Source of the DNA: Thiemannella venezuelensis
GTDB taxonomy: Bacteria; Actinomycetota; Actinomycetes; Streptosporangiales; Streptosporangiaceae
Direction of reading: 5' to 3'
DNA: 39,358 bases
Assembly (NCBI RefSeq): GCF_014203605.1
Contig: NZ_JACHJJ010000040.1
Location: 1-39,358, forward strand
Each line of letters opens with the position of its first letter. Positions within the stretch are counted from its first letter, which is position 1. Positions 1,328-39,358 of the stretch are shown one piece after another. A model generated the notes under the pieces. That model saw only the letters and a list, made by a program, of their open reading frames with translations, ran no database searches and was not told where the DNA came from. The position numbers and the translations under genes were made by a program.

Positions 1328-1337
1328 CCGCCCGCAC

Positions 1338-6893: not shown

Positions 6894-6896
6894 GGA

Positions 6897-7316: not shown

Positions 7317-7344
7317 GTCAGCCTCCCGGGCGACGGAGAGGTGG

Positions 7345-8010: not shown

Positions 8011-8073
8011 GCCGGTCAGATTATGAAGTAAAGCTCCGGGCGGAAATGCCGGGCCACTGGCGGGTTTTTACGG

Positions 8074-8102
8074 CAACTACCTGCCACCACGTGCCCCGTC
8101 AA
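8074..8102 (-). promoter_or_regulatory. Putative sigma-70-type promoter for the phosphotransferase
   Basis: On the minus strand, TTGACG (8097-8102) is followed after exactly 17 bases by TAGTTG (8074-8079), a fair match to the main vegetative promoter of actinomycetes. Transcription would begin about 55-60 bases before the ATG at 8010. No equally good promoter was found for the opposite (exporter) direction in the same gap; TTCAAG-N16-TAGTCC near 8119 is a weak candidate. Confidence 0.4.
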
Positions 8103-8177
8103 TTCCCGGCGCCATCCGTTCAAGATGGCTTCAACCGCACTAGTCCGCTTACTCCACGACATTGGGGAGGTGACACG

Positions 8178-9014: not shown

Positions 9015-9789
9015 CCCCGCCCCACGCCGCCTCGGCGTGCTCGACGCGCTGCACCGCATCGGCGCGCTGGCCCGGCACAACCTGATCATCCGGTTGCGCG
9101 ACCCCGGGCAGATGATCAGCTACGTCGCCATGCCCATGGTGCTCATGCTGGTGCTCAAGCCCCTGTACGTCCGGGCTCTCGACCAGGGCGTCGCCCAGAT
9201 CGCCACCGGCCTGATGGTGATGTTCTCGGTGTTCGCGATCTCCATGGCGGGCAACGCGATCCTGTCGGAGCGCACCTGGCGCACCTGGGACCGGCTCCGC
9301 GTGAGCAGGGCCCCGGCGTTCGAGCTGCTGATCGGCAAGACGCTGCCGCTGTTCGTGGTGATGATCGCGCAGCAGGCGATCCTGATCGTCTACGGCTGCC
9401 TGGCCATCGGGCTCCCGGTGCCGCCGTCGCCCCCGCTGGTGCTGCTGGCCATCGTGATCTGGGCGTTCGCGCTGCTGTCGCTCGGCGCGGTGCTGGCCAC
9501 GCTGGTGCGCAGCCACGGCGAGCTCAGCGTGATCTCCGACGTGGGCGCGCTCACCCTCAGCTCGCTGGGCGGGGCCCTGGTGCCGCTGAGCATCATGCCC
9601 GGCTGGGCGCAGGCGGCGGCGCACGTCTCCCCCGGCTACTACGCGCTGGACATGATGCAGGCCGCGGTGCGCGGAGACGCGGCCGGCGTCGTGCCGTCCG
9701 CGGCCGTGCTGCTGGTGCTGGGCCTGGCGGCGGGCGCGTTCGCCGCCCGCAGGCTGGCGCGCGGCTGGGGCCGCGGCGGGCTGCTGTGA
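9004..9789 (+). CDS. ABC-2 type exporter permease subunit (DrrB-like)
   Basis: 261 residues with a short cytosolic N-terminus and about six membrane segments, among them MISYVAMPMVLMLVLKPLYV, LFVVMIAQQAILIVYGCL and the C-terminal VVPSAAVLLVLGLAAGAFAA. The cytosolic loop ILSERTWRTWDRLRVSRAP is the typical ABC-2 family coupling loop, and IMPGWAQAAAHVSPGYYALD is the conserved stretch before the last helix. It overlaps the ATPase gene by 11 bases, so the two are co-translated, and the downstream PKS gene starts at or just after its stop. It is likely the membrane channel for efflux of the polyketide. Confidence 0.85.
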   Translation: MLLDPAPRRLGVLDALHRIGALARHNLIIRLRDPGQMISYVAMPMVLMLVLKPLYVRALDQGVAQIATGLMVMFSVFAISMAGNAILSERTWRTWDRLRVSRAPAFELLIGKTLPLFVVMIAQQAILIVYGCLAIGLPVPPSPPLVLLAIVIWAFALLSLGAVLATLVRSHGELSVISDVGALTLSSLGGALVPLSIMPGWAQAAAHVSPGYYALDMMQAAVRGDAAGVVPSAAVLLVLGLAAGAFAARRLARGWGRGGLL

Positions 9790-9818
9790 CAGGAACCTCC
9801 GTGAAGAAGGGCATGTTG

Positions 9819-12800
9819 ATGGATCAGCACCATTCATCCGGCGACGCCGATATCGCGATCATCGGCATGGCCGGCCGGTTCCCGGGTGCGGCCGACATCG
9901 AGACGTTCTGGCGCAACATCAGCACCGGCGTGGAGTCGTTCACTGAGTTCTCCGACGACGACCTCCTGGCCGCGGGCGTGTCGCCGGCGACGTTCCAGCA
10001 ACCGAACTACGTGCGGATGCGGCCGATCCTGGACGACATCCGCGGCTTCGACGCCGCGTTCTTCGGCTACAACCCGCGCGAGGCCACGCTCGCCGACCCG
10101 CAGCAGCGCATCTTCCTGGAGTGCGTGTGGGAGGTCCTGGAGTCGTCCGGGTACGCCGTCCCCGAGGGCCGGGGCAGCGTGGGCGTGTTCGCCGGGATGA
10201 ACATCAGCGGCTACCTGCTGACCCGGCTCATGGCCTTCCAGATGGGCATCGACACCAGCGCCCTGATGATCGGGAACGACAAGGACGCGCTGGCCACGAA
10301 CGTCGCCTTCCGCTTCGACCTGGACGGCCCCGCGCTGTCGGTGCAGACGTTCTGCTCGACCTCGCTGGTGGCGGTCCACCTGGCCGGGGAGAGCCTGCGG
10401 CGCGGCGAGTGCCGGATGGCGCTGGCCGGCGGCGTGTCGGTACGCATCCCCGACCGCACCGGCTACCTGTGGGAGGAGGGCGGCCAGGAGTCGCCCGACG
10501 GCCACGTGCGAACGTTCGACGCCGAGGGCCGGGGCAGCATGTTCGGCGACGGCGCGGCGGTCGTGCTGCTCAAGCGGCTCGACGACGCCGTGGCCGACCG
10601 GGACACCGTGCACGCCGTGATCCGCGCCTCGGCCATCAACAACGACGGCGCGATGAAGTTCAGCTACCTGGCGCCGAGCATCGACGGGCAGCGCCGCTGC
10701 GTGTCGGCGGCCCTCGCCCGGGCCGGTGTGGACCCCGACGACATCTCGTACGTCGAGGCGCACGGCACCGCCACCGAGGTCGGCGACCCGATGGAGGTGG
10801 CCGCGCTGACCCGCGCGTTCGGCGCCACGAAGCGGAAGCAGTACTGCGTGCTCGGCTCGATCAAGCCGAACGTGGGCCACCTGGACCGGGCCTCCGGCGT
10901 GACCGGTCTGATCAAGGTCGTCCAGTCGCTGCGCAACGAACTGATCCCCGGCACACTGCACTACCGCTCCCCCAACCCCGAGATCGACTTCGACGACAGC
11001 CCCTTCCGCGTCACCGCCGAGCCCACCCCGTGGCCACGCACGCCGGACAGGCCGCGCATCGCGGGCATCAGCTCGCTGGGCATGGGCGGCACCAACGCGC
11101 ACGCCATCGTCACCGAGGCGCCTCTCCCCGCACCGCGCGGCACGCGCTCGCGCCGCTGGCAGATCCTGCCGGTCTCGGCCCGGTCGCAGGCCGCCGCCGA
11201 GCAGTCGTGCGCGCGGCTGGCCGCCCACCTGGCGACGTCGTCGGACGACCTCGGCGACGTGGCGTACACGCTGCAGGCCGGGCGGAAACCGTACGGGCAC
11301 CGCAGGGTCGTGATCGCCGACTCGCCGGGGGCGGCGGCGGCCCGGCTGGCCGACCCGGCGGCCACACTGGGACGCGCGGACCCGACCGTCGGGCGGAGGA
11401 CCGGTTTCCTCGTCGCGGGGGTCGGCGAGCAGTACCCCGGCATGGTGTCCGCCCTCTACGCCGACGAGCCGGCGTTCCGCGCGGACGTGGACGAGTGCCT
11501 GGCCCTGCTGGGGCTGACCGCTCCCGGCCAGCTGTCCGACATCTTCGTCCCCGCCGAGCAGGCCGGGGGCGACGCCGACGACCTGGCCAGGCTGCTCGGC
11601 CGGACCGAGGCGGGCGCGCCGCGCTCCACCACCGAGCCGCACCTGGTGCAGCCCGCGGTGTTCGTGGCCGAGTACGCGCTGGCGCGGCAGCTCATCCGCT
11701 GGGGCGTCACACCCGAGATCATGATCGGCTACAGCCTCGGCGAGTACGTGTGCGCCTGCCTGTCGGGCGTGCTGTCGCTGCCGGACGCGCTGCGGCTGGT
11801 GGCGTACCGGGCCAAGCTCATCGCCTCGCAGCCCGAGGGGGCGATGCTGGCGGTGTCGGCCGACGAACGCCGGCTGGCCGCCGTCCTGGGCGAGGTGTTC
11901 ACCGGGGAGCTGGACGTGGCCGTCCGCACCGGCTCGCAGGTCGTGCTCGCCGGGCCGACCGAGGCGGTGGAGCGGGCCGCCTCGCTGCTGCTCGAATCCA
12001 AGATCGGGCACCGGCGGCTGGAGACCACGCATGCCTTCCACTCCCGGATGCTCGCCCCGCTGGCCGGCGAGCTGACGGCGTGGATCGCCGACAACATCAC
12101 GCTGAACCCGCCGGAGCTGCCGTACCTGAGCAACGTGACCGGCGAGCCGGCCACCGCCGAGGTCGTGACCGACCCCGGCTACTGGGCCCGCCACATGTGC
12201 GAGACCGTCGAGTTCGGCAAGGGGCTCGGCCGCGCGCTCGGGCAGGCCGACCTGGCACTCGTCGAGATCGGCCCCGGGCAGTCACTCGGCGCGCTGACCC
12301 GCGGGCACCCGTCCTGCGACCGCAACCAGTGGCCGCTCATCGTGACCACGCTCCCCGCCGCCGGCGACGCCCAGGACGCCGGCGCCGCCGTCGCGACCGC
12401 GGTCGGGAAACTGTGGCTGACCGGGGTGCCGATCGACTGGGCCGCGCTGCACGAGGACGACGGCTGGGCACCCGGCCGGGTGCCGCTGCCGACGTACCCG
12501 TTCGAGCGGCAGGACTACTGGCTGGAGATCGACCAGAGCGCGTTCAGCGGCGGCGGGGCCGCCGCCTACGACGAGAGCGACCCGACCAGCATCGCCAAGG
12601 CGTACCCGCGCCTGCCCGACACCCGCTGGATCCACGCGCCCGTCTGGAGGCAGACGACCGTCCGGCCCGCCCGCGAGGGGGGACCCGGGCGCTGGCTGGT
12701 CTACACCGACGAGGGCCGCGCGGCCGAGCTGGCCGCGCCGCTGCTCGCGCACCTCGCCGCGTCCGGCGAGGACGTGGTCCTGGTACGGCCCGGCGAGCGG

Positions 12801-14507
12801 TTCTCCAGCGACGGCGACGGCCTGCGGGTACGTCCCGGCTCGGCCGAGGACGCGCTGGCGGCGCTGCGCGAGCTGGCCGGACGCCGCTGGGAGCCCGAGC
12901 GCGTGGTGCACCTGTGGTCGGTGCGGGACGCCCCGATCGAGGAGACCCTGCAGCGCGGCCTGCACACGCTGGTCGGCCTGGCCCGCGCGGCCGGCGACAT
13001 GGGCCTGACCGGCTGGCAGCTCGACATCGTCACCTCCGGCGGCCAGCGGGTGCACCCGGGTGACCGCGTCCACGCCGGGCTCGGCACCCTGCTCGGCCCG
13101 GCCCGGCTGATCCCCGTCGAGTACCCGAAGGTCAGGACCCGCGTCATCGACGTCGACGCCGGAGCGGAGGCACTGCTCGCCGAGCTGCTCGCCGAGCCGT
13201 CCGACCAGGTGGTCGGGCTGCGCGGCGGGCAGCGGTGGATCCCCGACTACGAGGTGCTGGACGCATCCGTGATCGCCGCCAGGCCCCCGGCCGCCCGGGT
13301 CGAGAAGGGCGGCGTCTACCTGGTGACCGGTGGCCTGGGCGGCATCGGCCTGGCCATGGCCGAGCGGCTGGCCGAGCACTACCAGGCGCGGCTGGTGCTG
13401 CTGGGACGCACGCCGGTGCCGCCGCGCGAGCAGTGGCCCGCGATCCTGGCCTCCGACTCCACCGCCGCCGAGGTCCGCAGGCGTCTGGAGGGGCTGCGCC
13501 GCCTGGAGGCGGCCGGCGCGGAGGTCGTCACCGTCGCCGGGGACGTCTCCAGGCCCGATGACGCCCGCCGCGCCGTGGCCGCCGCCATCGAGCGCTTCGG
13601 CACGCTGAACGGCGTGCTGCACTGCGCCGGCGTGCCCGCCGTCGGGCTCATGCAGTTCAAGACCGTCGCCGACATGGAACGGGTGCTCGCGCCCAAGGTC
13701 ATGGGCACGCTCGCGCTGGCCGAGGCGCTGCGCGACACGCACGTGGACTTCCTCGCGCTGTACTCCTCCACCACCTCCGCCACCGGCGGCGGCGCCGGCC
13801 AGGTGGACTACTGCGCCGCCAACGCCTTCCTCGACTCGTTCGCGCTCAGCGACCCCCTGCCCGGCGTGACGGTCACCTCCGTCGACTGGTGCGAGTGGAC
13901 GTGGAACGGCTGGACCGAGGGCCTGGAGAACTACGACGAGGGCTCCAAGCAGTACTTCGCCTGGTACCGGGAGAACTTCGGCCTCACCTTCGACCAGGGC
14001 TGGGAGACCCTGCTGAGGGCCCTCGCCAGCGGCGAGCGGCACGTCGTGGCCTCCACGCAGGACTTCGCGCCTCTGGTGGCGATGAGCCGCAGGTCCTCGA
14101 TCGAGAGCCACCAGGCGACGGTGAAGAAGATCAGAGACGCGTTCGGCCGGCACCCGCGCCCCGATCTGTCCACCGCGTACGTCGAGCCGCAGACACCGGC
14201 CGAGGAGACCATCGCCGGGGTGTGGGCGGAGGCGCTGGGCCTGGATCAGGTCGGCGTACACGACAACTTCTTCGAGCTGGGCGGCAACTCGCTGCTCGGC
14301 ATGGAGATCATCGCTGAGGTCAGGAAGGCGCTGGAGCTGTCCTACCTGCCACCGCACATCCTCTACCAGGCGCCCACGATCGCCTCGCTCGCCGAGGCGG
14401 CCCAGGCCGGCCAGGACGCGGGCGAGCAGCCGAGCGAGGCCAGGGACCGGCAGCGGTCCCGCATCGCCCAGCGGCGCAACATGCTCAGGAGCGGAAGGAC
14501 GTCATGA
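9819..14507 (+). CDS. Type I PKS-A, one module: KS-AT-KR-ACP
   Basis: About 1562 residues. KS at about 10-430: active Cys179 in the unusual context [11 protein letters not shown], His315 in VEAHGTATEVGD, His354 in [12 protein letters not shown] between about 540 and 840: Ser639 in GYSLGEYV, specificity motif HAFH (738-741), conserved Arg in AYRAKLI; this suggests malonyl. A post-AT linker ends LPTYPFERQDYW. KR at about 1160-1400: TGGLGGIG near 1170, catalytic Tyr1331 and Asn1335 in VDYCAANAF. ACP: Ser1491 in ELGGNSLLGM. There is no DH, ER or TE. The C-terminus is a short basic tail. Starts at GTG 9786, GTG 9801 or ATG 9813 are possible; ATG 9819 has AAGAAGG 8 bases upstream. It overlaps the next PKS gene by 4 bases and is most like the second module of PKS-C. 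Confidence 0.92.
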   Translation: MDQHHSSGDADIAIIGMAGRFPGAADIETFWRNISTGVESFTEFSDDDLLAAGVSPATFQQPNYVRMRPILDDIRGFDAAFFGYNPREATLADPQQRIFLECVWEVLESSGYAVPEGRGSVGVFAGMNISGYLLTRLMAFQMGIDTSALMIGNDKDALATNVAFRFDLDGPALSVQTFCSTSLVAVHLAGESLRRGECRMALAGGVSVRIPDRTGYLWEEGGQESPDGHVRTFDAEGRGSMFGDGAAVVLLKRLDDAVADRDTVHAVIRASAINNDGAMKFSYLAPSIDGQRRCVSAALARAGVDPDDISYVEAHGTATEVGDPMEVAALTRAFGATKRKQYCVLGSIKPNVGHLDRASGVTGLIKVVQSLRNELIPGTLHYRSPNPEIDFDDSPFRVTAEPTPWPRTPDRPRIAGISSLGMGGTNAHAIVTEAPLPAPRGTRSRRWQILPVSARSQAAAEQSCARLAAHLATSSDDLGDVAYTLQAGRKPYGHRRVVIADSPGAAAARLADPAATLGRADPTVGRRTGFLVAGVGEQYPGMVSALYADEPAFRADVDECLALLGLTAPGQLSDIFVPAEQAGGDADDLARLLGRTEAGAPRSTTEPHLVQPAVFVAEYALARQLIRWGVTPEIMIGYSLGEYVCACLSGVLSLPDALRLVAYRAKLIASQPEGAMLAVSADERRLAAVLGEVFTGELDVAVRTGSQVVLAGPTEAVERAASLLLESKIGHRRLETTHAFHSRMLAPLAGELTAWIADNITLNPPELPYLSNVTGEPATAEVVTDPGYWARHMCETVEFGKGLGRALGQADLALVEIGPGQSLGALTRGHPSCDRNQWPLIVTTLPAAGDAQDAGAAVATAVGKLWLTGVPIDWAALHEDDGWAPGRVPLPTYPFERQDYWLEIDQSAFSGGGAAAYDESDPTSIAKAYPRLPDTRWIHAPVWRQTTVRPAREGGPGRWLVYTDEGRAAELAAPLLAHLAASGEDVVLVRPGERFSSDGDGLRVRPGSAEDALAALRELAGRRWEPERVVHLWSVRDAPIEETLQRGLHTLVGLARAAGDMGLTGWQLDIVTSGGQRVHPGDRVHAGLGTLLGPARLIPVEYPKVRTRVIDVDAGAEALLAELLAEPSDQVVGLRGGQRWIPDYEVLDASVIAARPPAARVEKGGVYLVTGGLGGIGLAMAERLAEHYQARLVLLGRTPVPPREQWPAILASDSTAAEVRRRLEGLRRLEAAGAEVVTVAGDVSRPDDARRAVAAAIERFGTLNGVLHCAGVPAVGLMQFKTVADMERVLAPKVMGTLALAEALRDTHVDFLALYSSTTSATGGGAGQVDYCAANAFLDSFALSDPLPGVTVTSVDWCEWTWNGWTEGLENYDEGSKQYFAWYRENFGLTFDQGWETLLRALASGERHVVASTQDFAPLVAMSRRSSIESHQATVKKIRDAFGRHPRPDLSTAYVEPQTPAEETIAGVWAEALGLDQVGVHDNFFELGGNSLLGMEIIAEVRKALELSYLPPHILYQAPTIASLAEAAQAGQDAGEQPSEARDRQRSRIAQRRNMLRSGRTS

Positions 14508-17500
14508 CCACCGGAACCGACTACGACTCCGCGGTCGCGTTGATCGGCATGTCCGGGCGCTTCCCCGGTGCCAGGAACGTGGCCGAGCTGTGGAGAAACC
14601 TGCTCGCGGGGATCAAGGGCCTGCGCGCCGTCACCGAGGAGGAGCTGCGGGAGGCCGGCGTCGACCCGGGCGTCCTCGCCGACCCCCGGTACGTGCGCGT
14701 CGGCGGCCCCCTGCACGACCTCGACCGTTTCGACGCCGCCGTGTTCGGGATCAACCCGCGCGAGGCCGAGACCATGGACCCGCAGCACCGGCTGTTCCTG
14801 GAGTGCTCGTGGGAGGCCCTCGAAGGCGCCGGGTACTGCCCGACCGACGTGCCCGGCCAGGTCGCCGTCTTCGGCGGGTGCGGGTTCCCCGACTACATCG
14901 TGCAGAACCTCCAGCACCTCGGCTCGCAGCCGGGCGGGACGCTGCTCATGGCCGTGGGCAACGAGCGCGACTCGCTGGCCTCGCTGGTGTCGTACAAGCT
15001 GGGGCTGCGCGGGCCCGCCGTGTCGGTGCAGACGTTCTGCTCGACGTCGCTGGTCGCGGTGCACCTGGCCTGCCAGAGCCTGCTCACGTACGAATGCGAC
15101 ATCGCGGTGGCGGGCGGCGCGTTCACCCCGCTCCCCCAGCCGGCGGGCTACCTGTACGAGCAGGGCGGCATCATGTCGCCCGAGGGCCGGGTGCGCAGCT
15201 TCGACGCCGAGGCGGGCGGCACCGTGATGGGCAGCGGGGCGGGCGTCGTGGCGCTCAAGCGCATGACGGACGCGCTCGCGGACGGCGACGTCATCCACGC
15301 GGTCATCCTGGGCTCGGCGGCCAACAACGACGGCCGCCTGCGGGCCGGGTACACCGCGCCCGGCGTGGACGGCCAGGCCGAGGTGATCGAGTCGGCGCTC
15401 GGTGTGGCCGGGGTCAAGCCCGACACCGTCGGGTACGTCGAGTGCCACGCCACCGGCACCATGCTGGGCGACTCGATCGAGCTGGCCGCCATGAACCGGG
15501 TCTTCTCCCAGCCGCGCGAGACGCCGTGCGTGCTGGGGTCGCTCAAGCCGAGCCTGGGCCACCTCGACCGGGCCTCCGGCGTGACCGGGCTGATGCGGGC
15601 GGCCATGACGCTCAAGCACGGGCTGCTGCCGGGCACGCCCGACTACCAGACCCCCAACCCCGCGCTGGCCACCGCGCAGGACCGGTTCACGGTGCTGACC
15701 GAGGACCGGCCGTGGGAGACGGGGCCGCACCCGCGGCGGGCCGGGGTCAGCTCGTTCGGGCTGGGCGGCACCAACGCGCACGTGGTCATGGAGGAGCCGC
15801 CGCGGCGGCCCTCCCGCCCCGACCGCCCCGGGCCGCACCTGCTGGTGTTCTCGGCCGGCGACGACCAGGCGCTGCGCGAGGTGACCGAACGGCTGCGCCG
15901 CCGTCTGACCGACGACCGCGGCGACGACCTCGCCGACGTGGCCTTCACGCTCCAGGTCTCCCGGGGCGGCTTCGCCCTGCGCCGCGCCGTCGTCGTCCAC
16001 GACCACGACGACGCGGTGGCCGCCCTGGACGACCCGTCCCGCTGGATCGACGGCAGAACCCAGCGCCGCAATCCCAAGGTCCGCCTCACCGCCCCCGCGG
16101 ACGCGCCGGAGACCTGGTGGAGCGAGCTGCACTCCGCGGCCGGGACGGTGCTGCGGCACGCCTCCGCGCCCGCCGGTCCGTCCCGCGAATCGGCACTCGA
16201 CGCGCTCGCCGACGGGCTCGGGGCCATCGGCGTCCGCGTGGTGCGGGACGACGACGAGCAGGTCGAGGAGGTCGTGGTCGCGCCCGGGGAAGGGGGCACC
16301 GCGGCCGAGTGGGTGCTGGGGGTCGTGGCGCGGCTGTGGATGGCCGGCAGCGCGATCGACTGGGCGGCGCTGCACAACGGGCAGGGACGCCGGGTCGAGC
16401 TGCCCACGTACCCGTTCCAGCGGCGCAGGTTCTGGGTGAAGGCCGGCCCCGCGCAGGCGCAGGCGCCGGCGGGTCAGGGCAAGACGTTCGACCGGTCGCG
16501 CTGGACCCACCTGCCGGCGTGGAAGCGGCACCCGCTGCCGGTCTCCGACCTGGACGAGCGGCTGCGCGAGGCGGGTCCGTGGCTGGTGTTCGCCGCCGAC
16601 GACCGCGGCGAGGCCCTGGTCGACCGGCTCGTCCGGGCCGGCGCCGACGTGACCGCCGTACGCGCCGGCGACCGGTTCGAGCAGGAGGACACCGGTGACT
16701 TCACCGTCCGCGCCCGCAAGGCCGACGACGTGGCGGAGGTGATGTACTCGCTGGTGGCCATGCCGAGGGCGATCGTGCACGCGTTCAGCCTGGCCTCTCC
16801 CGAGCAGGACCCCGGCGCCGACCCCGCGGCGCACTTCACCGAGGAGCAGCACCGCGGCTTCTACTCGGCGCTGGCGCTGTCCCGCGAGCTGGTCGACAAC
16901 ACCGGGTCCGCTCCTCGCGCCGAGCTGGTGCTGCTCACCCCGCAGGCGGTCAGCGTGGCGGGCGACGACCTGCGGCACCCCGAGCACGCCGCCCTGGCCG
17001 CGCTCGCCCCCAGTCTCCAGCAGGAGAACCCGCGGCTGCTCTGCCGCCACATCGACGTGGACGCCGCCGGCGACGCCGCCGTCCTGGCCGAGCAGGTGCT
17101 GGCCGCCGCGGTCGCCGGGCACGAGGGTCCGGTGGCGGTGCGCGCGGGCGAGACCTGGCTGCGTGCGTACGAGCCGTACCCGATCGAGGAGCCGGCCCCG
17201 GAACGGCGGCAGGTACGTGACGGCGACACCGTGCTCATCACCGGCGGCCTCGGCGACGTCGGCCTGGTCCTGGCCCGGCACTTCGCCGACGCCTACGGCT
17301 GCCGCCTGGTGCTCACCGCGCGCTCCCCGCTGCCGCCGCCCGAGGAGTGGGACGCCTACCTGGCCGCGCCCCCGCCCGGCGGCGAGCGCACGGTCCGGCA
17401 CATCCGCAACATCCGCGACCTGGAGAACCGGGGCGCGACCGTGCTCGCCCTGTCGGCGGACGTGGCCGACGAGGAGCAGATGCGGGCCGTCGTCGCCGCG

Positions 17501-18313
17501 GCGGTCGAGCGGTTCGACGCGATCGACGTGGTGGTGCACGGCGCGGGCGTGCAGGACGGGGCGTACTTCAACTTCGCGCACCTGATGGACCGGCAGCAGT
17601 GCGAGGCGCACTTCGCGGCCAAGGTGACCGGGTTCCACGTGCTGCAGAAGGTGCTCGGCGAACGGTGCCCGGACCGGCGGATCACCCTGTCGTCGATCGC
17701 GTCGGTGCTCGGCGGGATGACCCTCGGACCGTACGCGTCGGCCAACGCCGCCCTCGACGCCTACGCCCGCGTGGCGCGCACGGCCGGCCGGGGGCGCTGG
17801 GTCACCGTGGACTGGGACACCTGGAACATCGACCCCGACCGGGTGGCCGGCCACAGCGAGGCCGTCACCGACTACACGATGACCCCCGCCGAGGGCGTGG
17901 ACGTCCTGGAGCGGGCGCTGTCGGCGGCCGACCGGGTCGGGCACCTGGTGATCTCCACAGGGTCGCTGGACTCCCGGATCGCGCAGTGGGTCACCGGCGA
18001 CATCCACGGCGGCGGCGACGACTTCGACGACCGCGAACGGCACCCGCGCCCGGAGCTGAACAACCCGTACGTGGAGCCGCGCGAGGGCACCGAGGCCGCG
18101 CTGGCCGACATCTGGTCCCGCGTGCTCGGCATCGACCCCATCGGCGCCCTGGACAACTTCTTCGAGCTCGGCGGCCACTCGCTGCTGGCGATCGAGCTGA
18201 CCACCAGGATCCGCAGGACGCTCAACGCGTCGGTGCCGGTGACCGGCCTGCTGGAGTGCCCCACGGTCCGCCGGCTCGCCGAACTGCTCGACGCCCGCGA
18301 CGAGGAGGACTGA
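14504..18313 (+). CDS. Type I PKS-B, AT-less module: KS-(AT remnant)-KR-ACP
   Basis: 1269 residues. KS at about 10-430: Cys179 in [11 protein letters not shown], His315 in [12 protein letters not shown] (Gly to Ala after the His), His353 in [10 protein letters not shown]. Where the AT should be there are only about 190 residues between the end of the KS linker (about 445) and [13 protein letters not shown] (633), against about 440 in PKS-A. No GxSxG serine, no HAFH and no GEQYPG motif remain, although the flanking linker and the [11 protein letters not shown] stretch survive. KR at about 905-1140: TGGLGDVG near 912, Tyr1077 and Asn1081 in [13 protein letters not shown] Ser1226 in [10 protein letters not shown]. 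There is no TE domain. The extender must be supplied in trans. It is most like the first module of PKS-C, which keeps its AT. Translation is coupled to PKS-A (ATGA overlap). Confidence 0.92.
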
Positions 18314-18320
18314 GCACCCC

Positions 18321-19481: not shown

Positions 19482-20202
19482 CCACCGCGGCGGCGTAGCC
19501 GGCGGCGACGCCGAGCCAGCGGACCGGTCCGCCGAGGGAGCGCGACCGCTCACAGGTCGCGCTCCCTTCGTGTCCTTCGCCGTGGACGAGCACGTCGCCG
19601 AGCCGGGCCAGGCCGCCGCCGGTGGCCTTGACGAACGCCTCCTTCGCGGTCCACAGGCGGAAGTACCCGGTCAGGGCCGCGCCGGGGGAGGCGGCGCGCA
19701 GGCGGGCCGCCTCCTCCGGGCGGTAGAGGCGGTCGGCCATGGCCAGGGGGTCGAGGTCGTCGCGGACGCGTTCGACGTCCACGCCCACGCGCCACCCCTC
19801 GGGGGCGACGGCGACCAGGGCCCACTCGTCGGAGTGCGACAGGTTGAAGTCGGGCGCGGGCCGGCCCCCCCCGGGGTCGAGGCGGGGGCGGCCCGAGGGG
19901 TCCGGGGAGAAGGCGACCCGGGCGGCGGGCACGCCGCAGACGCCGCCCAGCACGGAGCGCAGGGCGGCGTGCGCGACGACGTACCGGCGGCGGTCGACGG
20001 CGCGGGCGAAGGCGCATGCCCTCTCCCGCTCGCCCTCCGACAGCCACTCCCACCACTCCGCCCGCTCGGCCCGGTCCAGATGCGCCTTCCACACCCGCAC
20101 CCCGGCCGGCCACGACCACGCCCGCGCGTCCCCGGCCTGCGCGTCGGCGACCCGCGCGCTCGCGGACCGCGGGTTCACGGTCGCGGCCTGCGTCACACCC
20201 AT
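19444..20202 (-). CDS. Sfp-type 4'-phosphopantetheinyl transferase
   Basis: 252 residues. It has the metal-binding motif VGVDVE (139-144, Asp142 and Glu144) and the WTAKEAFVK motif (184-192, with Glu188), preceded by [13 protein letters not shown], the usual strand with the conserved Ser/His. The roughly 250-residue length is that of Sfp rather than AcpS. It should convert apo ACPs of the PKSs and the free ACP of this cluster to the holo form using coenzyme A. Its ATG at 20202 overlaps the stop of the thioesterase gene. It is the last gene of the minus operon, and its 3' end carries the terminator hairpin of the opposite operon and overlaps the dehydrogenase gene. Confidence 0.9.
19535..19567 (+). 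terminator. Terminator of the plus PKS operon, inside a convergent gene
   Basis: Arms AGGGAGCGCGACC (19535-19547) and GGTCGCGCTCCCT (19555-19567) pair perfectly over 13 bases around a 7-base loop, 53 bases past the dehydrogenase stop. It lies wholly within the coding region of the convergent phosphopantetheinyl transferase, in the segment for CERSRSLGG, so the protein tolerates a palindromic coding stretch here. Confidence 0.6.
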
Positions 20203-20981
20203 GGGCGGAGTGCCTCCGCGACGATCGCGTGGGTGCGGGGCGCCTGTTCGAAGACGGCGAAGTGGCCGCCGTCGAACGGGTGCGGGGTGAAGCCGGCGCT
20301 GGTCAGCGCGCGCCACCCCGACGCCTTGGCCGGGGAGACGCGCGGGTCCGCCGAGCTCGTCAGCAGCGAGATCGGCAGGCCCAGCGGCGGCTCGTCCCGG
20401 TAGACGTAGGTCTCCTTCACGGTGAAGTCGGCCTGCACCGCGGGAAGGATCATCTCCAGCGCCTCCGGGTCGGCCAGCAGCCACTCGGGGGTGCCGCCGA
20501 GCGCCCGCAGCAGCGCCGCCACCTCCCCCTTGTTCATCTTCCGCACCGGCGGCCCGTCCTCGTAGGTGAGGTGGGGGGCGTCGGAGCCGGAGACGAACAG
20601 GTGCACGGGAGCGGGCCCGCCCCTCCGCCGGATCTCGCGGACCAGCTCGAACGCGACGATCGCGCCGAGGCTGTGGCCGTACAGGGCGTACCGGCGACCG
20701 GCCGCGGACGCCTCCACGTCCGCGAGCACGGCGTCGGCCAGGTCCGAGACCAGCGGCTCCATGCGCTCGTAGGGCGGCTCCCGGTGCCGGGACTCGCGGC
20801 CGGGCGGCTGGACGGGCTGCACGGCCACGCCGGGCAGCTTGCGCTGCCACCCCCGGAACGCGGACGCGGCGCCGCCCGCGTGGGGCAGGCAGTACAGCGG
20901 CAGGGCGCCGGGTTCCGCGCCCGTGAGGGCGCGGAACGGCAGCCACCGCGACAGCACGTCCTCGGTGCTCGCGACGCTCAT
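20193..20981 (-). CDS. Type II thioesterase
   Basis: A 262-residue alpha/beta hydrolase. The nucleophile is Ser104 in YGHSLGAIVAF, the acid is probably Asp212 in TSSADPRVSP, and the base is His240 in FDGGHFAVF. The N-terminal YCLPHAGGAASAFRGW is the typical oxyanion region of stand-alone thioesterases of PKS and NRPS clusters (RifR/GrsT type). These enzymes remove aberrant acyl groups from carrier proteins and so keep the assembly line running; they normally do not release the final product. The ATG at 20981 overlaps the FkbH stop (ATGA), and its own end overlaps the transferase start by 10 bases. Confidence 0.92.
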   Translation of the reverse strand: MSVASTEDVLSRWLPFRALTGAEPGALPLYCLPHAGGAASAFRGWQRKLPGVAVQPVQPPGRESRHREPPYERMEPLVSDLADAVLADVEASAAGRRYALYGHSLGAIVAFELVREIRRRGGPAPVHLFVSGSDAPHLTYEDGPPVRKMNKGEVAALLRALGGTPEWLLADPEALEMILPAVQADFTVKETYVYRDEPPLGLPISLLTSSADPRVSPAKASGWRALTSAGFTPHPFDGGHFAVFEQAPRTHAIVAEALRPWV

Positions 20982-22063
20982 GTCCCGATCTCCAGACGGA
21001 CGTACGGCGGCGGCGGCTGCACGGCGCCGAGGTCGGCCTCCAGCACCACGTTCGCCCCGTTCCGCTCGGCCTCGCGGAACCCGGCGAACGCGTACGTCAC
21101 CTGCATCATCCGGTTGCGCCCGGTCTCCACGAAGTCGGCCCGCACCGCCACCCCGGCCTCGGCGGCCAGCCGCAGGACGTGGTTGAGCAGCACCATGCCC
21201 ACGCCCCGCGACATGACCCGGCACGACATCAGCAGCATGCGCAGCCACCAGACGCCCTGCCCCTTCTCGACCAGGACGAGCCCGATCTTGCCGTAGCCGC
21301 CGAACCTGTCGGTCAGCGACGCGACCAGGAGCAGATGGTCGGGGGACTCCCGCAGGGCGTCCAGCTCGTCGTAGGAGTAGGTGCGTCCGGTGGAGTTGAG
21401 CTGGTTGGTGCGGACGGTCAGCTCCTCGGCCCGCTGCAGGTCCTCCCGGCGGGCCGGGGAGATGGTGAACGACATCTCCAGGCTCGCCAGGAACTCCTCG
21501 TTGGTGCCGACGAAGCCCTCCTCCAGCTCGTCCCTGGCGAGCTGGCTGCGGTACATGTCGCGCCGCCGCGCCGACTCGTCGGTCACGAACCGGGGTCGGA
21601 ACTCGGGCCTGGACAGGGCCTCGTCCAGGTCGGCCACGTCCACGCAGACCACGTCGGGCAGCTCGTGGGCCACCTCGGCGCGCTCGAACTCCTGGTCGTC
21701 CACGAACGCGAAGGCGTCGATCCCGAGGTTGAGCGCCCTGGCGATGTTCTTGACCGAGTCGGACTTGGCGTTCCAGTTGATCTGCGGGTAGAGGAACAGG
21801 TCGGCCAGGCCCAGCTCGGTCAGCTTGGCCAGGGCCGCGTCGCGGTCGTTCTTGGACGCGATCGAGTGCAGGACGCCCTTGCCGTCCAGCTCGCGGATGC
21901 GCTCGACGACGGCGGGGCGCACGGTGACGTCGCCGTCCTCCAGCAGCACGCCGTCCCACAGGGTGTTGTCCAGGTCCCACACGACGCACTTGACGCGGCC
22001 CCGCCGGGGTTTCTCCGGCGCGACGAAGACGCCGGAGTCCTGGCGCTCGGTGGTCACGCTCAT
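20978..22063 (-). CDS. FkbH-like glyceryl-ACP synthase (HAD family)
   Basis: 361 residues. The HAD motif is VVWDLDNTLWDG (Asp30 and Asp32, residues 27-38), followed by IASKNDRD and FVDDQEFER, and a C-terminal half with the acetyltransferase-like MLLMSCRVMSRGVG segment typical of FkbH. The family loads D-1,3-bisphosphoglycerate onto a carrier protein and dephosphorylates it, giving glyceryl-S-ACP. This is the first step towards hydroxymalonyl- and methoxymalonyl-ACP, and also towards tetronate units. The two dehydrogenases and the free ACP directly upstream in the operon point to the extender-unit route. Both ends overlap neighbours by 4 bases, so all four cassette genes are probably translated together. 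Confidence 0.92.
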   Translation of the reverse strand: MSVTTERQDSGVFVAPEKPRRGRVKCVVWDLDNTLWDGVLLEDGDVTVRPAVVERIRELDGKGVLHSIASKNDRDAALAKLTELGLADLFLYPQINWNAKSDSVKNIARALNLGIDAFAFVDDQEFERAEVAHELPDVVCVDVADLDEALSRPEFRPRFVTDESARRRDMYRSQLARDELEEGFVGTNEEFLASLEMSFTISPARREDLQRAEELTVRTNQLNSTGRTYSYDELDALRESPDHLLLVASLTDRFGGYGKIGLVLVEKGQGVWWLRMLLMSCRVMSRGVGMVLLNHVLRLAAEAGVAVRADFVETGRNRMMQVTYAFAGFREAERNGANVVLEADLGAVQPPPPYVRLEIGT

Positions 22064-23205
22064 CTGGTCATCTCCCGCTCTGCCTGGCCTGCGATGGTGA
22101 TGCGCTGGATCTCGTTGCTGCCCTCGATGATCTCCATGACCTTGGCGTCCCGGTAGAACCGCGCCACCGGGTAGTCGGGGCTGCAGCCGTTGGCGCCGTG
22201 GATCTGCACGGCCTCGGCGGCGTGCCGGACCGCGGCGGTGGAGGCGAAGTACTTCGCGATCCAGGTCGCCATGATCGTTCCGGCGTCCCCGGCGTCCTTC
22301 AGCCGGCCCGCCTCGGCCAGCAGCAGCCGGGCCGCGCGGGCGTCGGTGACCATGTCGGAGAGCTTGGCCTGGATCAGCGGCAGCTCCGACAGGGGCCGTC
22401 CGCCCACCCGGCGGTGCGCGGCGTAGGCGACCGACGCGTCCAGGCACGCCTGGATGATGCCGACGGACCCGGCCGCCACGCTGTAGCGGCCGAGGTCGAG
22501 GGTGCCGGTCAGCACCATGCCTGCCGTGAAGCCGCTGCTCGGCCCGAGCAGCGCGTCGGGGCCGAGCACGACGTCGTCGAAGGAGACCTCGGCCAGCATG
22601 GAGGCGCGGGTGCCGAGCATGTCGTCGATCGGCGTGACGCGCACGCCCGGGGTGCTCCTCGGCACGAGGAAGGCGCCGATGCTGGCGGCGGTGCGGGCGA
22701 ACACCAGGAACAGGTCCGCCCGCTGCCCGCCGGTCGTCCACTTCTTGACGCCGTTGATCACCCAGCCGCCGCCGCCCTCGACGGCGGTGGTCGCGATCGC
22801 GGAGGTGTCGCTGCCGGCGCCCGGCTCGGACAGGCAGAACGCCCCCAGCGTCTCGCCGCCGGACAGCTCGGAGGCCCACCGGTCGAGCTGCTCCGGCGTG
22901 CCCCAGCGCTGCACGCTCCACGCGACCATGGTGTGCACGGTCAGCAGGCTGCGCAGCGAGGAGCAGCCGCGGCCCACCTCCTCGTGCACCTCGCCGAGCG
23001 TGACCAGGTCCATCCCGGCCCCGCCCGACTCCGGCGACAGGAACGGCGCCCACAGGCCCGCCGCGGCCGCGTGCCGCAGCAGGTCCTCGGGGACGCGGCC
23101 GATCCTGTCGTACTCATCCGCGTACGGCACCACGTGCGTGTCGACGAACGCCCGCGCCGAGCGCCGGTCGACGACCTGGACGGGTACCGGTGCGACGAGC
23201 GTCAC
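22060..23205 (-). CDS. Acyl-CoA dehydrogenase of the extender cassette (FkbI/ZmaI-like)
   Basis: 381 residues. It has CLSEPGAGSDTSAIATTA in the FAD-binding middle domain, KKWTTGG, and VMEIIEGSNEIQRITIAG at the C-terminus with the usual catalytic Glu. In hydroxymalonyl/methoxymalonyl-ACP pathways an enzyme of this family completes oxidation of the glyceryl C3 to the carboxylate after the 3-hydroxyacyl dehydrogenase has acted; that role is assigned from its neighbours. The start is GTG 23205, overlapping the ACP stop by 4 bases; no ATG lies close by. It ends in an ATGA overlap with fkbH. Confidence 0.9.
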   Translation of the reverse strand: MTLVAPVPVQVVDRRSARAFVDTHVVPYADEYDRIGRVPEDLLRHAAAAGLWAPFLSPESGGAGMDLVTLGEVHEEVGRGCSSLRSLLTVHTMVAWSVQRWGTPEQLDRWASELSGGETLGAFCLSEPGAGSDTSAIATTAVEGGGGWVINGVKKWTTGGQRADLFLVFARTAASIGAFLVPRSTPGVRVTPIDDMLGTRASMLAEVSFDDVVLGPDALLGPSSGFTAGMVLTGTLDLGRYSVAAGSVGIIQACLDASVAYAAHRRVGGRPLSELPLIQAKLSDMVTDARAARLLLAEAGRLKDAGDAGTIMATWIAKYFASTAAVRHAAEAVQIHGANGCSPDYPVARFYRDAKVMEIIEGSNEIQRITIAGQAEREMTR

Positions 23206-23459
23206 GCGGCGGCCACGGTCGGCGAGAGGCGGGCCACGAGCTCGGCCATCGCGGTGGCGGTGCGGAAGTTGTCGATCCGCAGTTCCTCGTTGGGGATGGT
23301 GACGTCGAAGGTCTTCTCGACGTACATCACCAGCTCCATCGCGAACAGCGAGTTGACGAAGCCGAGCGCGAAGATGTCCTGCGTCGCGTCGATCTCGGCC
23401 TGCGGGTACCGGCCGCGGACGAAGTCCAGGATCTGCTCCTGGGCGGTGAGGTGCGACAT
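23202..23459 (-). CDS. Free acyl carrier protein for the extender unit
   Basis: 85 residues from ATG 23459, or 89 from ATG 23471. The phosphopantetheine Ser lies in ALGFVNSLFAMELVMYVEK, where the usual DSL is NSL; the FVNS(L/M)FAM pattern is characteristic of the discrete ACPs that carry glyceryl, hydroxymalonyl and methoxymalonyl groups (FkbJ/ZmaD type). The acidic helix and short length fit a stand-alone carrier. ATG 23459 is preferred because GGAG lies 6 bases before it; the upstream ATG has no ribosome site. It sits between the two dehydrogenase genes of the cassette. Confidence 0.9.
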   Translation of the reverse strand: MSHLTAQEQILDFVRGRYPQAEIDATQDIFALGFVNSLFAMELVMYVEKTFDVTIPNEELRIDNFRTATAMAELVARLSPTVAAA

Positions 23460-23471: not shown

Positions 23472-24320
23472 TCAGTTCGTTGCGTAGGTGTAGAAGCCGC
23501 GGCCGGACTTGCGTCCGTGCAGGCCGGCGTCGGTCATCTGCTTGAGCAGCGGGCAGGGCCGGTACTTGCTGTCGGCGTAGTGCTCGTAGAGCACCTCGAC
23601 GCTGTAGAGGATCGTGTCCACGCCGATCAGGTCGGCGGTCTCCAGCGGCCCCATCGGGTGGCCGAAGCAGCTGCGGAAGACCTCGTCGACCGACTCGGCG
23701 TCGGCCACGCCCTCGTGGACGAGGTACGCGGCCTCGTTGACGGTGAGCATCAGGACCCGGTTGGAGATGAACCCGCAGGAGTCCTTGACGTCCACGGACT
23801 TCTTGCCCATGGCGGACAGCAGGTCGCGGGTGCGCTGAACCGTCTCCTCGGAGGTGTGCACGCCGGGGATGAGCTCCACGGCCGGCTTGGCGGGCACCGG
23901 GTTCATGAAGTGCACGCCGATCACCTTGTCGGGCCGCGTGGTGACGGAGCCGACCTTGGTGATGGGGATGGCGGAGGTGTTGACCACGAAGACGGTGCCG
24001 GGGCCGCAGACGGCGTCGAGCGTCTCGTACACCTGCCGCTTGGTCTCCCAGTCCTCGGTGACGTTCTCGATGACGAGGTCGCACTTGGCCGCGCCCTCCG
24101 CGCCCACGGCGGTGGTGATCCTGGCCAGCACCTCGTCGACGTCGAGGGCGGGGCCGCCCATGAGGCGGCTCATCCTGGTGTTGCGGGCGACGGCCGCCAG
24201 CGCGTCACTCAGGATCTTCTCGTCCCTGTCGACCAGCACCACGTCGTGGCCGGTCTGGGCGAGGTTCTGGGCGACGCCGACGCCCATGACGCCGGCGCCG
24301 ATCACTCCGATCAGGCTCAT
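23472..24320 (-). CDS. 3-hydroxyacyl-CoA dehydrogenase-like enzyme (FkbK/ZmaG-like)
   Basis: 282 residues. The N-terminal Rossmann motif GVIGAGVMGVGVAQ binds NAD, followed by DLVIENVTED, FVVNTSAIPITK and IGVHFMNPVP, the conserved active-site blocks of 3-hydroxybutyryl-CoA dehydrogenases, and a C-terminal helical domain ending GRKSGRGFYTY. In extender cassettes this enzyme oxidises the primary alcohol of glyceryl-ACP to the aldehyde. ATG 24320 is chosen (GGAG 5 bases upstream, Rossmann motif at the very start). An in-frame ATG at 24359 overlaps the PKS-C stop and would add 13 residues. It is the first cassette gene after the PKS genes. Confidence 0.9.
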   Translation of the reverse strand: MSLIGVIGAGVMGVGVAQNLAQTGHDVVLVDRDEKILSDALAAVARNTRMSRLMGGPALDVDEVLARITTAVGAEGAAKCDLVIENVTEDWETKRQVYETLDAVCGPGTVFVVNTSAIPITKVGSVTTRPDKVIGVHFMNPVPAKPAVELIPGVHTSEETVQRTRDLLSAMGKKSVDVKDSCGFISNRVLMLTVNEAAYLVHEGVADAESVDEVFRSCFGHPMGPLETADLIGVDTILYSVEVLYEHYADSKYRPCPLLKQMTDAGLHGRKSGRGFYTYATN

Positions 24321-24355: not shown

Positions 24356-27300
24356 TCATGTGTGGGTTTCCTGAGGTTGGCGTGCGCGCCTCCGGGCGGC
24401 GGAGGCTTCGAGGCCCGAACGGCGCAGCTGGGCGCGCACGTGGCTGCCCTCGGCGTCGGCCTGCGCGGGCGCCGTACCCGAGGCCGGCGCCTCGACGATC
24501 CGGCTGAGCGCGGCCACGGTGGGGGCCTCGTAGAGGATGTGCGGGGGCAGCTCGTCCAGGTCGAAGGCCCGGCGTACGGCGGCCACGATCGCCACGCCGA
24601 GCAGCGAGTTGCCGCCGAGCTCGAAGAAGTTGTCCAGCGCGCCCACCCGGTCCAGCCGCAGCGACTCCCGCCAGATCGCGGCCACCTTCTCCTCGGTGGG
24701 ACCGGTCGGCTCCTGGTAGGAGGTGACCAGCTCGGGCCTGGGGTGCAGGTCGCCGCCGCCCATGTCGGGCGAGGTGACGGCCTCCAGCGTGAAGCGGGAG
24801 CTGCCGCGTACGAGGGTGGGGTAGTCCTGGGTGGAGACCACGACGCGCGGCTCGCCGGAGGCCAGGGCGCGCCGGAGCGAGCGCCAGCCGTCCGCGAAGC
24901 CGATGCCGACCCTGGCCCGGTTGCGGCGGAAGAAGTCGCGCAGTTCCTCCTCGTACCCGGCCAGGCCCGCCTCCCAGGCGTTCCACGTCCACTCGCCCCA
25001 GTCGACGGCGACGACGCGGCGGCCGGTGGCGGCCAGCTTGCAGGCGTAGCCGTCGAGGAAGGCGTTGGCGGCGCAGTAGTCCACCTGGCCGGGGCCGCCG
25101 CCGGTGGCGGAGGTGATGGAGGAGAACAGGACCAGGAAGTCCAGCTCGACCTCGTCCGGCCCGCCGATGCGCAGCGCCTCGGCGAGGGCCAGGGTTCCGT
25201 CGATCTTGGGGGCGAGGACGGCGTCCAGTTCCTCGGGCCGTTTGAACTGCATGAGGCCCATGCCGGGGACGCCCGCGGCGTGCAGGACGCCGTGGAGCGC
25301 GCCGAAGCGGGTCAGGGCCGCGTCCACCGCCCGGCGCGCGTCGGCGGCGTCCGCCACGTCGCCGACGACGATCTCGACCTCGGCGCCCAGCTCGACCAGG
25401 TCGCGGACCTGGGCGGCGCGCCGTTTCGCGGTCTCGTCGTGGTCGCCGTCCGCCGGCGGCAGGCCGGTCCTGGCCAGGAGGACCAGTTTGGCGCGGTGCT
25501 CGCGGGCCAGGTGCTCGGCCAGGCCGAGCGCGATGCCGCCGAGGCCGCCCGTGATCAGGTAGACGCCCTCGTCGCGGAAGGGCGCGTCCCGCGGGTCGGC
25601 GGGCAGCCGCTCGTAGTCCGGGAGCCAGCGGCGGCCGTTCCGCAGGGCGACCGTGCGGTCGGCCTGCGGGCGGGCCAGCTCGGCGGCCAGCGCGGCCAGG
25701 TCCCCGGGCGCGGGCGCGCCCGGGAGGTCGATCAGGCGGGTGGTCACCCCCGGGTACTCCAGGGGGATCACCAGGCAGGGGCCGGTGAGGGTGGCGCCCT
25801 CGGGGTGGGTGACCTCGTCGCCGATGACCTGCTGGGTGCCGGAGACCGCGACGTCCAGGGACCAGGCGGCGACGCCCGCCTCTCCCGCGGCCCTGGCCAG
25901 GGCGACGAGGGTGTGCAGGCCGCGGGCCGTGGTGTCCTCGCCCGGCTCCAGCGCCCACAGGTGCAGGACGCGGTCCAGGGGGCGGCCGGCGGCCTTGAGG
26001 TCGCGGAGCAGGGCGCGCAGGTCGGCGACGTTGCCCGGCCTGACGGTGTGGTCCCCGTCCGGGGTGGCCGTGTAGGCGTCGCCGGGGCGGGCCAGGGTGA
26101 CGGTGGCGCCGGTGGCCCTGAGGCTCTCGGCGACGGTGTCGGCCAGGCCCTCGCGGGTGAGGACCAGCCAGGAGGCGGGGCCGTCCGCCGCGGGGGCGGG
26201 GGGTGCGCTCTGGCGCCAGACGGGGAGGTGGAGCCAGTGGTCCTCCGGGAGCCTGGGAAGGCTCGTGATGGCGTCGAAGATGTCGTCCGGCTCGGCCGCC
26301 GCCCCGATCGCAGGCCGGCGCGGGGCCGGGGGCTCGATCCAGTGGCGCTGCCGCTGGAAGGGATAGGCGGGCAGCGGGATCCGGCCCGGGACGGCCTCCG
26401 CGGTCCAGAGGGCGCTCTCCCCCGCCCGGCCGGCGTCCTGGGCCCCGCCGTTCGCCGGCGTCCTGCCGTGGTAGGCGTCCCAGTCGACGGTGACGCCGCA
26501 CAACCAGAGGCGGGCCAGGCAGTCGGCCAGCGCGAGGTCGCCCGGCCTGGCGTCGCTCGCGGCGGGCAGCGTGTGGGTGATCAGCGGCCAGCGCTCGGGC
26601 GGGCAGCCCGCGCCGCGGACCAGCGCGCCGAGCGACTGCCCGGGACCGATCTCCACGACGGCCAGCTCGGGGTCGGCCAGCACCTTGCCGACGCCGTCGG
26701 CGAACCGGACGGTCGCGCACATGTGCCGCGCCCAGTAGCCAGGGTCGCACACGAGCGCGGCGTCGGCGACCTCGCCGGTCACGTTCGAGATGTACGGCAG
26801 GCGCGGCGCGTTCAGCCGCACGTTGTCCGCCACCCACCTGGTCAGCTCGTCGCTCAGCGGCTCCAGCATCCGCGAGTGGAAGGCGTGGGTGGTCTCCAGC
26901 GGGCGGCACGGCACCTCGGCCGCGCGCAGGTCGGCGGCCAGCCGCGTGACCGCCTCGCCGGGCCCGGCGACCACCGTGACCTGCGGGCCGTTGACGGCGG
27001 CGACGTCCAGGCCGCGCTCGTCCAGCCGGAAGCGGCGGCGCAGCCGGTCGGCCGGGAGCGACACGGCGAGCATCCCCCCCGCGGGGAGGCCGGCGATGAG
27101 CCCGGCCCGGTGGGCGACCAGGGCCAGGGCGTCCTCCAGCGACAGGACGCCCGCCAGGGTGGCGGCGACGTACTCGCCGAGGCTGTAGCCGAGCATGAGC
27201 CGCGGGGTGACGCCCCACGCGATGAGGGTGCGGGCCAGGGCGTACTCGACGGCGAACAGCGCGGGCTGGACGACCTCGGTGCGTTCGAGCGCGGCGGCCC

Positions 27301-38574: not shown

Positions 38575-38603
38575 CGGAAGAGCCTTTCCGGTCTCGGTCG
38601 CGG

Positions 38604-39358
38604 TCACAGTTCGTTGTCGATGAGGGCGAAGATCTCCTCGTCGGAGGCTGATTCGATCTGGTCCATCACGCCGCCTCGGGCGGCCGGGGCCGAGCCGAGC
38701 TTGGCGAGCGCGCTCTGCAGGATCGGCACGAGACGGTCGCGGATGGAGTCGGCCTCCCCGTTGGCGCTCGCGAGCGCCCGGTCGATCCTGGCGAGGGCGT
38801 CGCGGAGCGTGTCCTCGGGCACGGCCTCGGGCGGAGCCAGGGTCGTGAACAGGTACTCCGCGAGCGACGTGACGGTGGGATGGTCGAAGACGAGCGTGGC
38901 GGGCAGGCGCAGGCCGGTGTCGGCGTTGAGCCGGTTGCGCAGCTCGACGGCGGTCAGGGAGTCGAAGCCGAGCTCGTTGAAGGGGCGGTTCACCTCGACG
39001 CTGCCGGCGCTGCCGTGCGCGAGCACCGCGGCGACGTGGCCCTGCACGCTCTCGACGAGCAGGCGCAGCGCGTCGGGCCGGGGCAGGGCGGCCATGCGGC
39101 CGGCGAGGGTGGTGCCGCCCGCGTGCGCCGCCGAGGACACCGCCTGCCGGGGCACGCGGACGAGGCCGCGCAGCATGGGGGGCAGGTCGCCGTTCTCGGC
39201 CCGGGCACGCAACCCGGCCGTGTCCCAGCGCGCCGCCACCACGACCGCGTCGTCCCCGGCCACAGCCGCATCGAACAACCCCAACCCCTGCTCCACACTC
39301 AACGGAGCGATCCCGGCCCGGGCCAGGCGAGCAAGATCAGCCGGACCCAGCCCCCCGG
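38604..39358 (-). CDS. Type I PKS-E, C-terminal end (KR tail-ACP-docking)
   Basis: Only the last 251 or so codons are in the window; the gene continues to the right. The visible part starts with GPADLARLARAGIAPLSVEQ, the end of a ketoreductase domain (the conserved C-terminal segment), then an ACP with GFDSLTAVELRNRL, the canonical actinomycete form. It ends in an acidic helical docking tail (SDEEIFALIDNEL) of the kind that binds the N-terminal coil found on PKS-D. The TGA at 38604-38606 overlaps the possible GTG start of PKS-D. The number of modules upstream is unknown. Confidence 0.9.
   Translation of the reverse strand, partial: GGLGPADLARLARAGIAPLSVEQGLGLFDAAVAGDDAVVVAARWDTAGLRARAENGDLPPMLRGLVRVPRQAVSSAAHAGGTTLAGRMAALPRPDALRLLVESVQGHVAAVLAHGSAGSVEVNRPFNELGFDSLTAVELRNRLNADTGLRLPATLVFDHPTVTSLAEYLFTTLAPPEAVPEDTLRDALARIDRALASANGEADSIRDRLVPILQSALAKLGSAPAARGGVMDQIESASDEEIFALIDNEL

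Follow-up and report, generated by a model that had tools for sequence, protein, structure and literature searches.

The window analysed here, a stretch of 39,358 nucleotides from Thiemannella venezuelensis, holds the polyketide synthase (PKS) genes and accessory genes collected in Table 1, in which the modules of PKS-C are called C1 and C2. On the whole, an acyltransferase (AT) is carried by four of the five ketosynthase (KS)-containing modules; the exception is PKS-B, whose start is overlapped by the 3' end of PKS-A by 4 bases (ATGA). As had been claimed, the cluster encodes a route to an extender unit bound to an acyl carrier protein (ACP), namely the cassette of HADH, ACP, ACAD and FkbH genes. 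In a genome-contig scan of which the best 80 of 254 matches were kept (75 loci), PKS-B orthologues or parts of them are found in the 33 loci L009-L041, and 28 of these 33 have all four cassette genes; the gaps belong to L011, L037, L040 and L041, which are cut by contig ends, and to L027, where none lies within the flank. No O-methyltransferase gene was noticed next to the cassette. The putative thioesterase gene has no match in NCBIfam.

Table 1. Features of the window (L120 is the plasmid cluster of Streptomyces cattleya)
Feature	Position	Strand	Remarks
PKS-A	9786..14507	+	KS-AT-KR-ACP; AT 11406-12275, GYSLG
PKS-B	14504..18313	+	1269 aa, KS-(AT vestige)-KR-ACP
PKS-B ketosynthase	14528..15793	+	Cys/His/His motifs present
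PKS-B KS-AT linker, kept	15842..16069	+	residues 447-522; RWxxxxTxxR block at end
PKS-B condensed AT vestige	16070..16279	+	residues 523-592; no active-site Ser or His
PKS-B AT vestige end and post-AT linker	16280..16438	+	residues 593-645; post-AT motif
PKS-B ketoreductase	17228..17827	+	catalytic Tyr/Asn motif present
PKS-B ACP	18098..18289	+	GGHSL
Thioesterase (TE) by similarity and position, chain-release candidate	20193..20981	-	39% identity, S. cattleya stretch
FkbH-domain protein, proposed glyceryl-ACP former	20978..22063	-	69% identity to L120 gene
Acyl-CoA dehydrogenase family protein (ACAD), cassette	22060..23205	-	60% identity to L120 gene
Free-standing cassette ACP	23202..23459	-	62% identity to L120 gene
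3-Hydroxyacyl dehydrogenase (HADH), hydroxymalonyl-ACP cassette	23472..24320	-	71% identity to L120 gene
PKS-C	24356..33709	-	two KS-AT-KR-ACP modules; ATs C1 31208-32086, C2 26639-27517, both GYSLG
PKS-D	33706..38607	-	KS-AT-KR-ACP; AT 35920-36861, GYSLG

Several observations concern the surroundings of these genes. Directly after PKS-B stands a second acyl-CoA dehydrogenase (18321-19481), which is found in most relatives and for which the S. cattleya stretch has no separate counterpart. PKS-A resembles a copy of the C2 lineage set between ABC genes and PKS-B, and is absent from that position in L030, L031, L036 and L040. The genes at 195-7500 look unlike cluster genes by eye (CBS-domain, nitroreductase-like and membrane acyltransferase-like proteins), and the cluster edge is placed near 8046. 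On the other side, contigs C61 and C3 appear to continue the cluster of the window (C40); as we infer these joins from the ends of PKS genes and from relatives, some of the cluster may be missing from the assembly. The first PKS gene is adjoined on C3 by a region (4766-29483, loci L094-L095) that includes a type II PKS set with a fused KS-CLF, a cysteine desulfurase, and condensation-, adenylation-, carrier- and ABC-transporter-like genes; much of it is syntenic in four relatives, so that this region and the PKS cluster possibly form one large supercluster.

The interval singled out in the original prediction, 15836-16440, corresponds to residues 445-646 of PKS-B. The Pfam matches of this protein are ketoacyl-synt, the KS C-terminal extension, the CurL-like and RhiE-like KS-AT linker models, KR and ACP, with no match to Acyl_transf_1; PKS-A and PKS-C both match that model, and the genome search finds it in PKS-D as well. 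Between the GTNAH motif and the post-AT motif lie 223 residues in PKS-B versus 477-501 in the other four modules of the window, and the module alignment shows neither the active-site GxSxG nor the catalytic HAFH left in it. This demonstrates that the proposed AT loss is real; the size had been given as about 240 residues, while the module alignment shows a shortfall of about 255 or more against the sibling modules. The KS-AT and post-AT linkers are retained, as was also proposed, and are recognized by the linker models and by the motif blocks. Structure prediction gives a compact AT vestige without the active-site segment, in a comparison where VIA-align rechecked only the top Foldseek-ranked chains (999 aligned). 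When the vestige is aligned by hhalign with the AT modules of the window, only 93 columns are aligned, which are the KS end and the linker.

Such a gap could also arise if a 720-base segment were simply absent from this contig, and the contig is indeed a draft one whose end falls inside a PKS gene. However, among the best 80 of 254 matches the AT-less span measures 185-262 residues in all 31 PKS-B frames counted (the window and 30 relatives, without the frame-shifted L029 and without L037 and L041, which are cut by contig ends), and the PKS-A span measures 473-481 residues in all 28 frames (the window and 27 relatives). Since the 30 of 30 relatives counted among these best 80 of 254 matches come from separate assemblies and are equally AT-less, a missing segment of about 720 bases is excluded, and we give an assembly artefact next to no weight. 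A family search adds three further PKS-B members with 222-239 residues, perhaps overlapping the earlier ones, and a fourth that is partial.

The rest of the protein is well kept in relatives. Among the best 80 of 254 matches, the KS Cys/His/His, KR Tyr/Asn and ACP serine motifs are present in 31 of 31 frames, the RWxxxxTxxR block closing the KS-AT linker is found by pattern in 30 of 31, and the ACP ends within 25 residues of the C-terminus in 31 of 31. With its ACP near the C-terminus and no docking tail, PKS-B is probably the terminal module of the line. Compared with L011, the dN/dS of the window PKS-B is 0.17 in the KS, 0.27 in the KS-AT linker, 0.41 in the vestige, 0.15 in the KR and 0.21 in the ACP; the values of the close pairs with L009 and L010 are noisy (L010 KR 1.27, linker 1.12) and were not relied upon. 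In 15 non-redundant PKS-B rows, the majority-residue conservation is 0.87 for the KS, 0.79 for the linker, 0.53 for the vestige and 0.76 for the post-AT stretch, the vestige being the lowest of the eight stretches compared. In Nonomuraea dietziae (L029) PKS-B has a similar overall span and a frame shift in the KS at about 10740, which is either a sequencing error or the mark of an inactive gene. The ACP motif reads GGHSL in 29 and GGHSM in 2 of the 31 frames (best 80 of 254 matches), GGHSL also in module 18 of S. cattleya, and GGNSL in the L043 module and the four sibling ACPs.

The origin of the AT-less module was read from two quick KS trees, one of 115 rows including 17 PKS-B and one of 66 rows that also takes in the plasmid cluster of S. 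cattleya. In the former, the 17 PKS-B KSs form a single clade (SH-aLRT 100), which is nested in a clade of 83 rows (SH-aLRT 100) with A, C1, C2 and 43 other AT-bearing KSs; six other AT-less KSs also lie in this clade, which we count against the explanation favoured below. The KSs taken as trans-AT (those of the AT-less loci L061, L067, L071, L078 and L082) fall outside it. Forcing nine PKS-B KSs together with 14 of the KSs taken as trans-AT (L061, L067, L071 and L078), a group named after the first tree and then tested, costs 90 log-likelihood units with a p-AU of 1.2e-7, and a classical trans-AT origin of KS-B is rejected. A retained KS-AT linker lacking an AT active site is a trait that PKS-B shares with classical trans-AT PKSs, whose modules, unlike four of the five in the window, generally have no AT. 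As KS-B is located in a largely AT-bearing clade and apart from the trans-AT KSs, the AT was lost secondarily, just as first suggested. Judged from these sequences, the AT loss in PKS-B is real, old, conserved and secondary.

Which AT-bearing module is closest is answered differently by the trees. The original prediction took C1 as the sister module, and within the host genome PKS-B matches PKS-C module 1 best (50%); however, C1 is not its sister in either tree, and forcing it to be so is 22 log units worse, though not rejected (p 0.12). In the 66-row tree the next branch to B and S. cattleya 18 is the AT-bearing module of L043 (99), while in the 115-row tree L043 joins C1, an arrangement that is 1.2 log units worse and not rejected (p 0.49). 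With the trees in disagreement, L043 as the closest AT-bearing kin of KS-B was dropped as an argument, which slightly lowers our confidence in the explanation favoured below; the secondary loss stands while that kin varies. L043 itself (533-18391), from a Chloroflexota MAG, has three modules with GYSLG ATs followed by HADH, ACAD and FkbH, and is likely a polyol line outside Actinomycetota.

The 66-row tree pairs the modules of the window with those of S. cattleya: D with 16m2 (SH-aLRT 98), C1 with 17m1 (100), C2 with 17m2 (96) and B with 18 (99). Module 18 is likewise AT-less, so that the deletion probably occurred in an ancestor shared with the S. cattleya-type cluster. In 16m2 (L120, 413-10741, + strand), the counterpart of PKS-D, the AT is shrunken with GHGVG in place of GxSxG and is apparently dead in place. 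With the ATs gone from B and 18 and shrunken in 16m2, no fewer than two distinct modules of the family have lost AT function.

The gene order HADH, ACP, ACAD, FkbH, TE is the same in the window, in L120 and in the butyrolactol table (PMC5355916). By this order and by the kinship of modules D, C1, C2 and B, which rests on the S. cattleya relatives and not on the sequence of the producer TP-A0882, the cluster of the window is, as far as genes can tell, a butyrolactol-type polyol PKS. In butyrolactol A, glucose but not acetate labels C1-C8, from which its authors infer hydroxymalonyl-ACP, and labelling gives four hydroxymalonyl units; the C1-C2 pair is among the glucose-labelled, not acetate-labelled positions (PMC5355916). 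In the excerpted listing of its assembly line, Orf10-16 ends with KS/KR/ACP, Orf10-17 has two KS/AT/KR/ACP modules, both ATs being predicted as malonyl-type, and Orf10-18 is KS/DH/KR/ACP (PMC5932044). Labelling and collinearity together then place two of the four hydroxymalonyl positions in modules without a listed AT, as far as that excerpt goes, and by collinearity the AT-less last module would add one hydroxymalonyl unit, C1-C2. By kinship with these modules, hydroxymalonyl, the unit first proposed for PKS-B, is also the likely one.

A different unit would follow if FabD loaded malonyl on ACP-B, making the last unit malonate. Stand-alone AT frames of FabD size do exist in the genomes, and for haliamide the excerpt of PMC6274090 gives the proposal that a stand-alone malonate-type AT serves its AT-less modules. 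Against this, the butyrolactol C1-C2 pair, which by collinearity in the partial listing comes from the AT-less counterpart of PKS-B, is glucose-labelled (PMC5355916), and malonyl loading by FabD is therefore held unlikely here.

As to which enzyme could load ACP-B, the active-site signatures of the ATs were compared. All four ATs of the window are GYSLG, as are both of L017; GYS is found in 57 of 57 cluster ATs of the fetched loci (among the best 80 of 254 matches; near-copies, not independent) and in 3 of 3 of L043, the sole other fetched locus with both FkbH and ACAD. Loci without both genes show GYS in 4, GHS in 35 and no motif in 1 of 40 ATs, and GHS is also the motif of the three further host ATs that were read. 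In the excerpt of PMC4207774, ZmaA-AT (GYSFG) and ZmaF (GYSLG) take ACP-bound units and CoA-using ATs are GHS. The motif held to recognize the carrier, MXW for ACP and charged or RXR for CoA, is mixed in the cluster, with PCR, GHR and ACR, and points clearly to neither; like the malonyl-type prediction for the Orf10-17 ATs, this counts against loading by a sibling. ACP-B has 42-45% identity to the sibling ACPs, none being closer, so that no donor is singled out, and a further point against loading by a sibling is that DEBS ATs prefer their cognate ACPs at least 10-fold in the excerpt of PMC6164871. An AT would be unneeded altogether if KS-B took hydroxymalonyl straight off the free cassette ACP, where the extender is already bound, and left ACP-B unloaded. 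The ACP-B serine motif is, however, kept in 31 of 31 frames (best 80 of 254 matches) and under constraint, and the cassette ACP is only 30% identical to ACP-B; this makes direct use of the cassette ACP quite improbable.

The original prediction put forward a dedicated trans-loading step as a hypothesis and asked for a discrete AT. The host has one (C3:20777-21682), which lies some 18 kb past the AT of the PKS gene opening that contig; the distance to the outermost PKS AT is 18-21 kb in four of four relatives checked, where the region is syntenic, and orthologues (searched at E 1e-40) are found in 15 of the 19 genomes with PKS-B that were searched. Despite the constant distance, its candidacy is weakened by the same 15 of 19 genomes carrying a KS-CLF. 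This lies some 3 kb from the AT on one contig and is accompanied in the host by ACP, FabA-like and reductase genes, a set that would need a malonyl loader. At E 1e-40 no orthologue is found in Actinokineospora, Labedaea, Sphaerisporangium album and Streptomyces alkaliphilus (a fragmented assembly), all four of which retain an AT-less PKS-B. On the cluster contig of Actinokineospora (G007) all PF00698 matches lie in large PKS frames, and the short-frame matches of this genome are only a 322-aa frame elsewhere and a PKS piece. Moreover, the discrete AT is GHSVG with fabD as its best NCBIfam match (200 bits versus a cut-off of 261); no GYS-type discrete AT is found in the cluster, and this one is the sole discrete AT found linked to it, by contig joins that are themselves inferred. 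Therefore the search does turn up a discrete AT, but a FabD-like one that follows the type II KS-CLF, and a dedicated loader is not borne out. This AT most likely supplies the type II set and could serve PKS-B where present; as the trans-AT of PKS-B in general it is an improbable candidate, if one not to be dismissed lightly.

Sharing of the sibling ATs thus appears as the best-supported route of loading, and we put a probability of roughly 0.53 on the reading that PKS-B is a butyrolactol-type terminal module whose ACP is given hydroxymalonyl in trans by sibling GYSLG ATs. The AT of PKS-B would have been deleted in an ancestor while its KS, KR and ACP remained functional. FkbH and the two dehydrogenases would build hydroxymalonyl on the free cassette ACP, from which a sibling GYSLG-type AT (A, C1, C2 or D) would take it for its own module and also transacylate the ACP of PKS-B. 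KS-B would then condense and the KR reduce, with the free thioesterase probably releasing the chain. What the sequences show of this is the missing AT, its conservation, the separation of KS-B from the trans-AT lineage, the catalytic motifs that remain, the cassette and the kinship of the modules; the unit is deduced from the butyrolactol labelling, and the terminal place, donor AT and release are deductions too. The broader statement is that, in an otherwise cis-AT line, sibling ATs charge the ACP of an AT-less module on a different polypeptide with a carrier-bound extender, which makes local ATs dispensable and prone to repeated decay, as in the deletions of PKS-B and S. cattleya 18 and the shrunken GHGVG form of 16m2; it stands for us a little short of even odds.

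If sibling ATs do serve PKS-B, one carrier-accepting AT domain can feed several modules, and polyol engineering would be simpler than with one AT per module. Across the family, corresponding modules offer ATs that are intact, dead or deleted, and an orphan cluster that is conserved and widespread in Streptosporangiaceae is assigned to the butyrolactol type. Cis-AT lines with an AT-less module are already known, and PKS-B adds a member to this kind; what the comparison newly gives is the module kinship and a testable set of donor ATs.

Among known systems, colibactin (ClbG, aminomalonyl) is an analogue, and OzmQ KS1 of oxazolomycin belongs to the classical AT-less KS lineage. Zwittermicin A is alike in its hydroxymalonyl-ACP pathway and its GYS-type ATs for ACP-bound units, as far as the excerpts describe it, and its ZmaF is listed among discrete ATs as aminomalonyl-ACP-specific in that of PMC6164871. 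Oxazolomycin (OzmQ KS1) differs in being a line with a discrete methoxymalonyl-ACP AT, OzmC (excerpt of PMC6164871). The haliamide PKS-NRPS likewise has AT-less modules within an AT-bearing line, but uses malonate units with a stand-alone AT proposed, according to the excerpt of PMC6274090. The excerpted literature, which does not include the FEMS paper of 2015 on TP-A0882, nowhere takes up the loading of the AT-less module in butyrolactol or Herbidospora. The closest likeness is with the butyrolactol PKS (Orf10-16 to 10-18 of Streptomyces sp. TP-A0882, as excerpted) and S. cattleya pSCATT, which have an AT-less KS module in the same place; however, in its partial listing the butyrolactol line has two AT-less modules of four, versus one of five in the window. 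The window further differs from both in its extra module A and in the division of modules among genes, and its ACAD1 and PPTase have no counterpart of their own in the S. cattleya stretch. Finally, the pks-1 cluster of Herbidospora is, by domain order and protein size in Table 2 of the PMC4599437 excerpt, the same cluster as that of the window, with a protein of 1261-1265 aa given as KS/KR/ACP in all five type strains.
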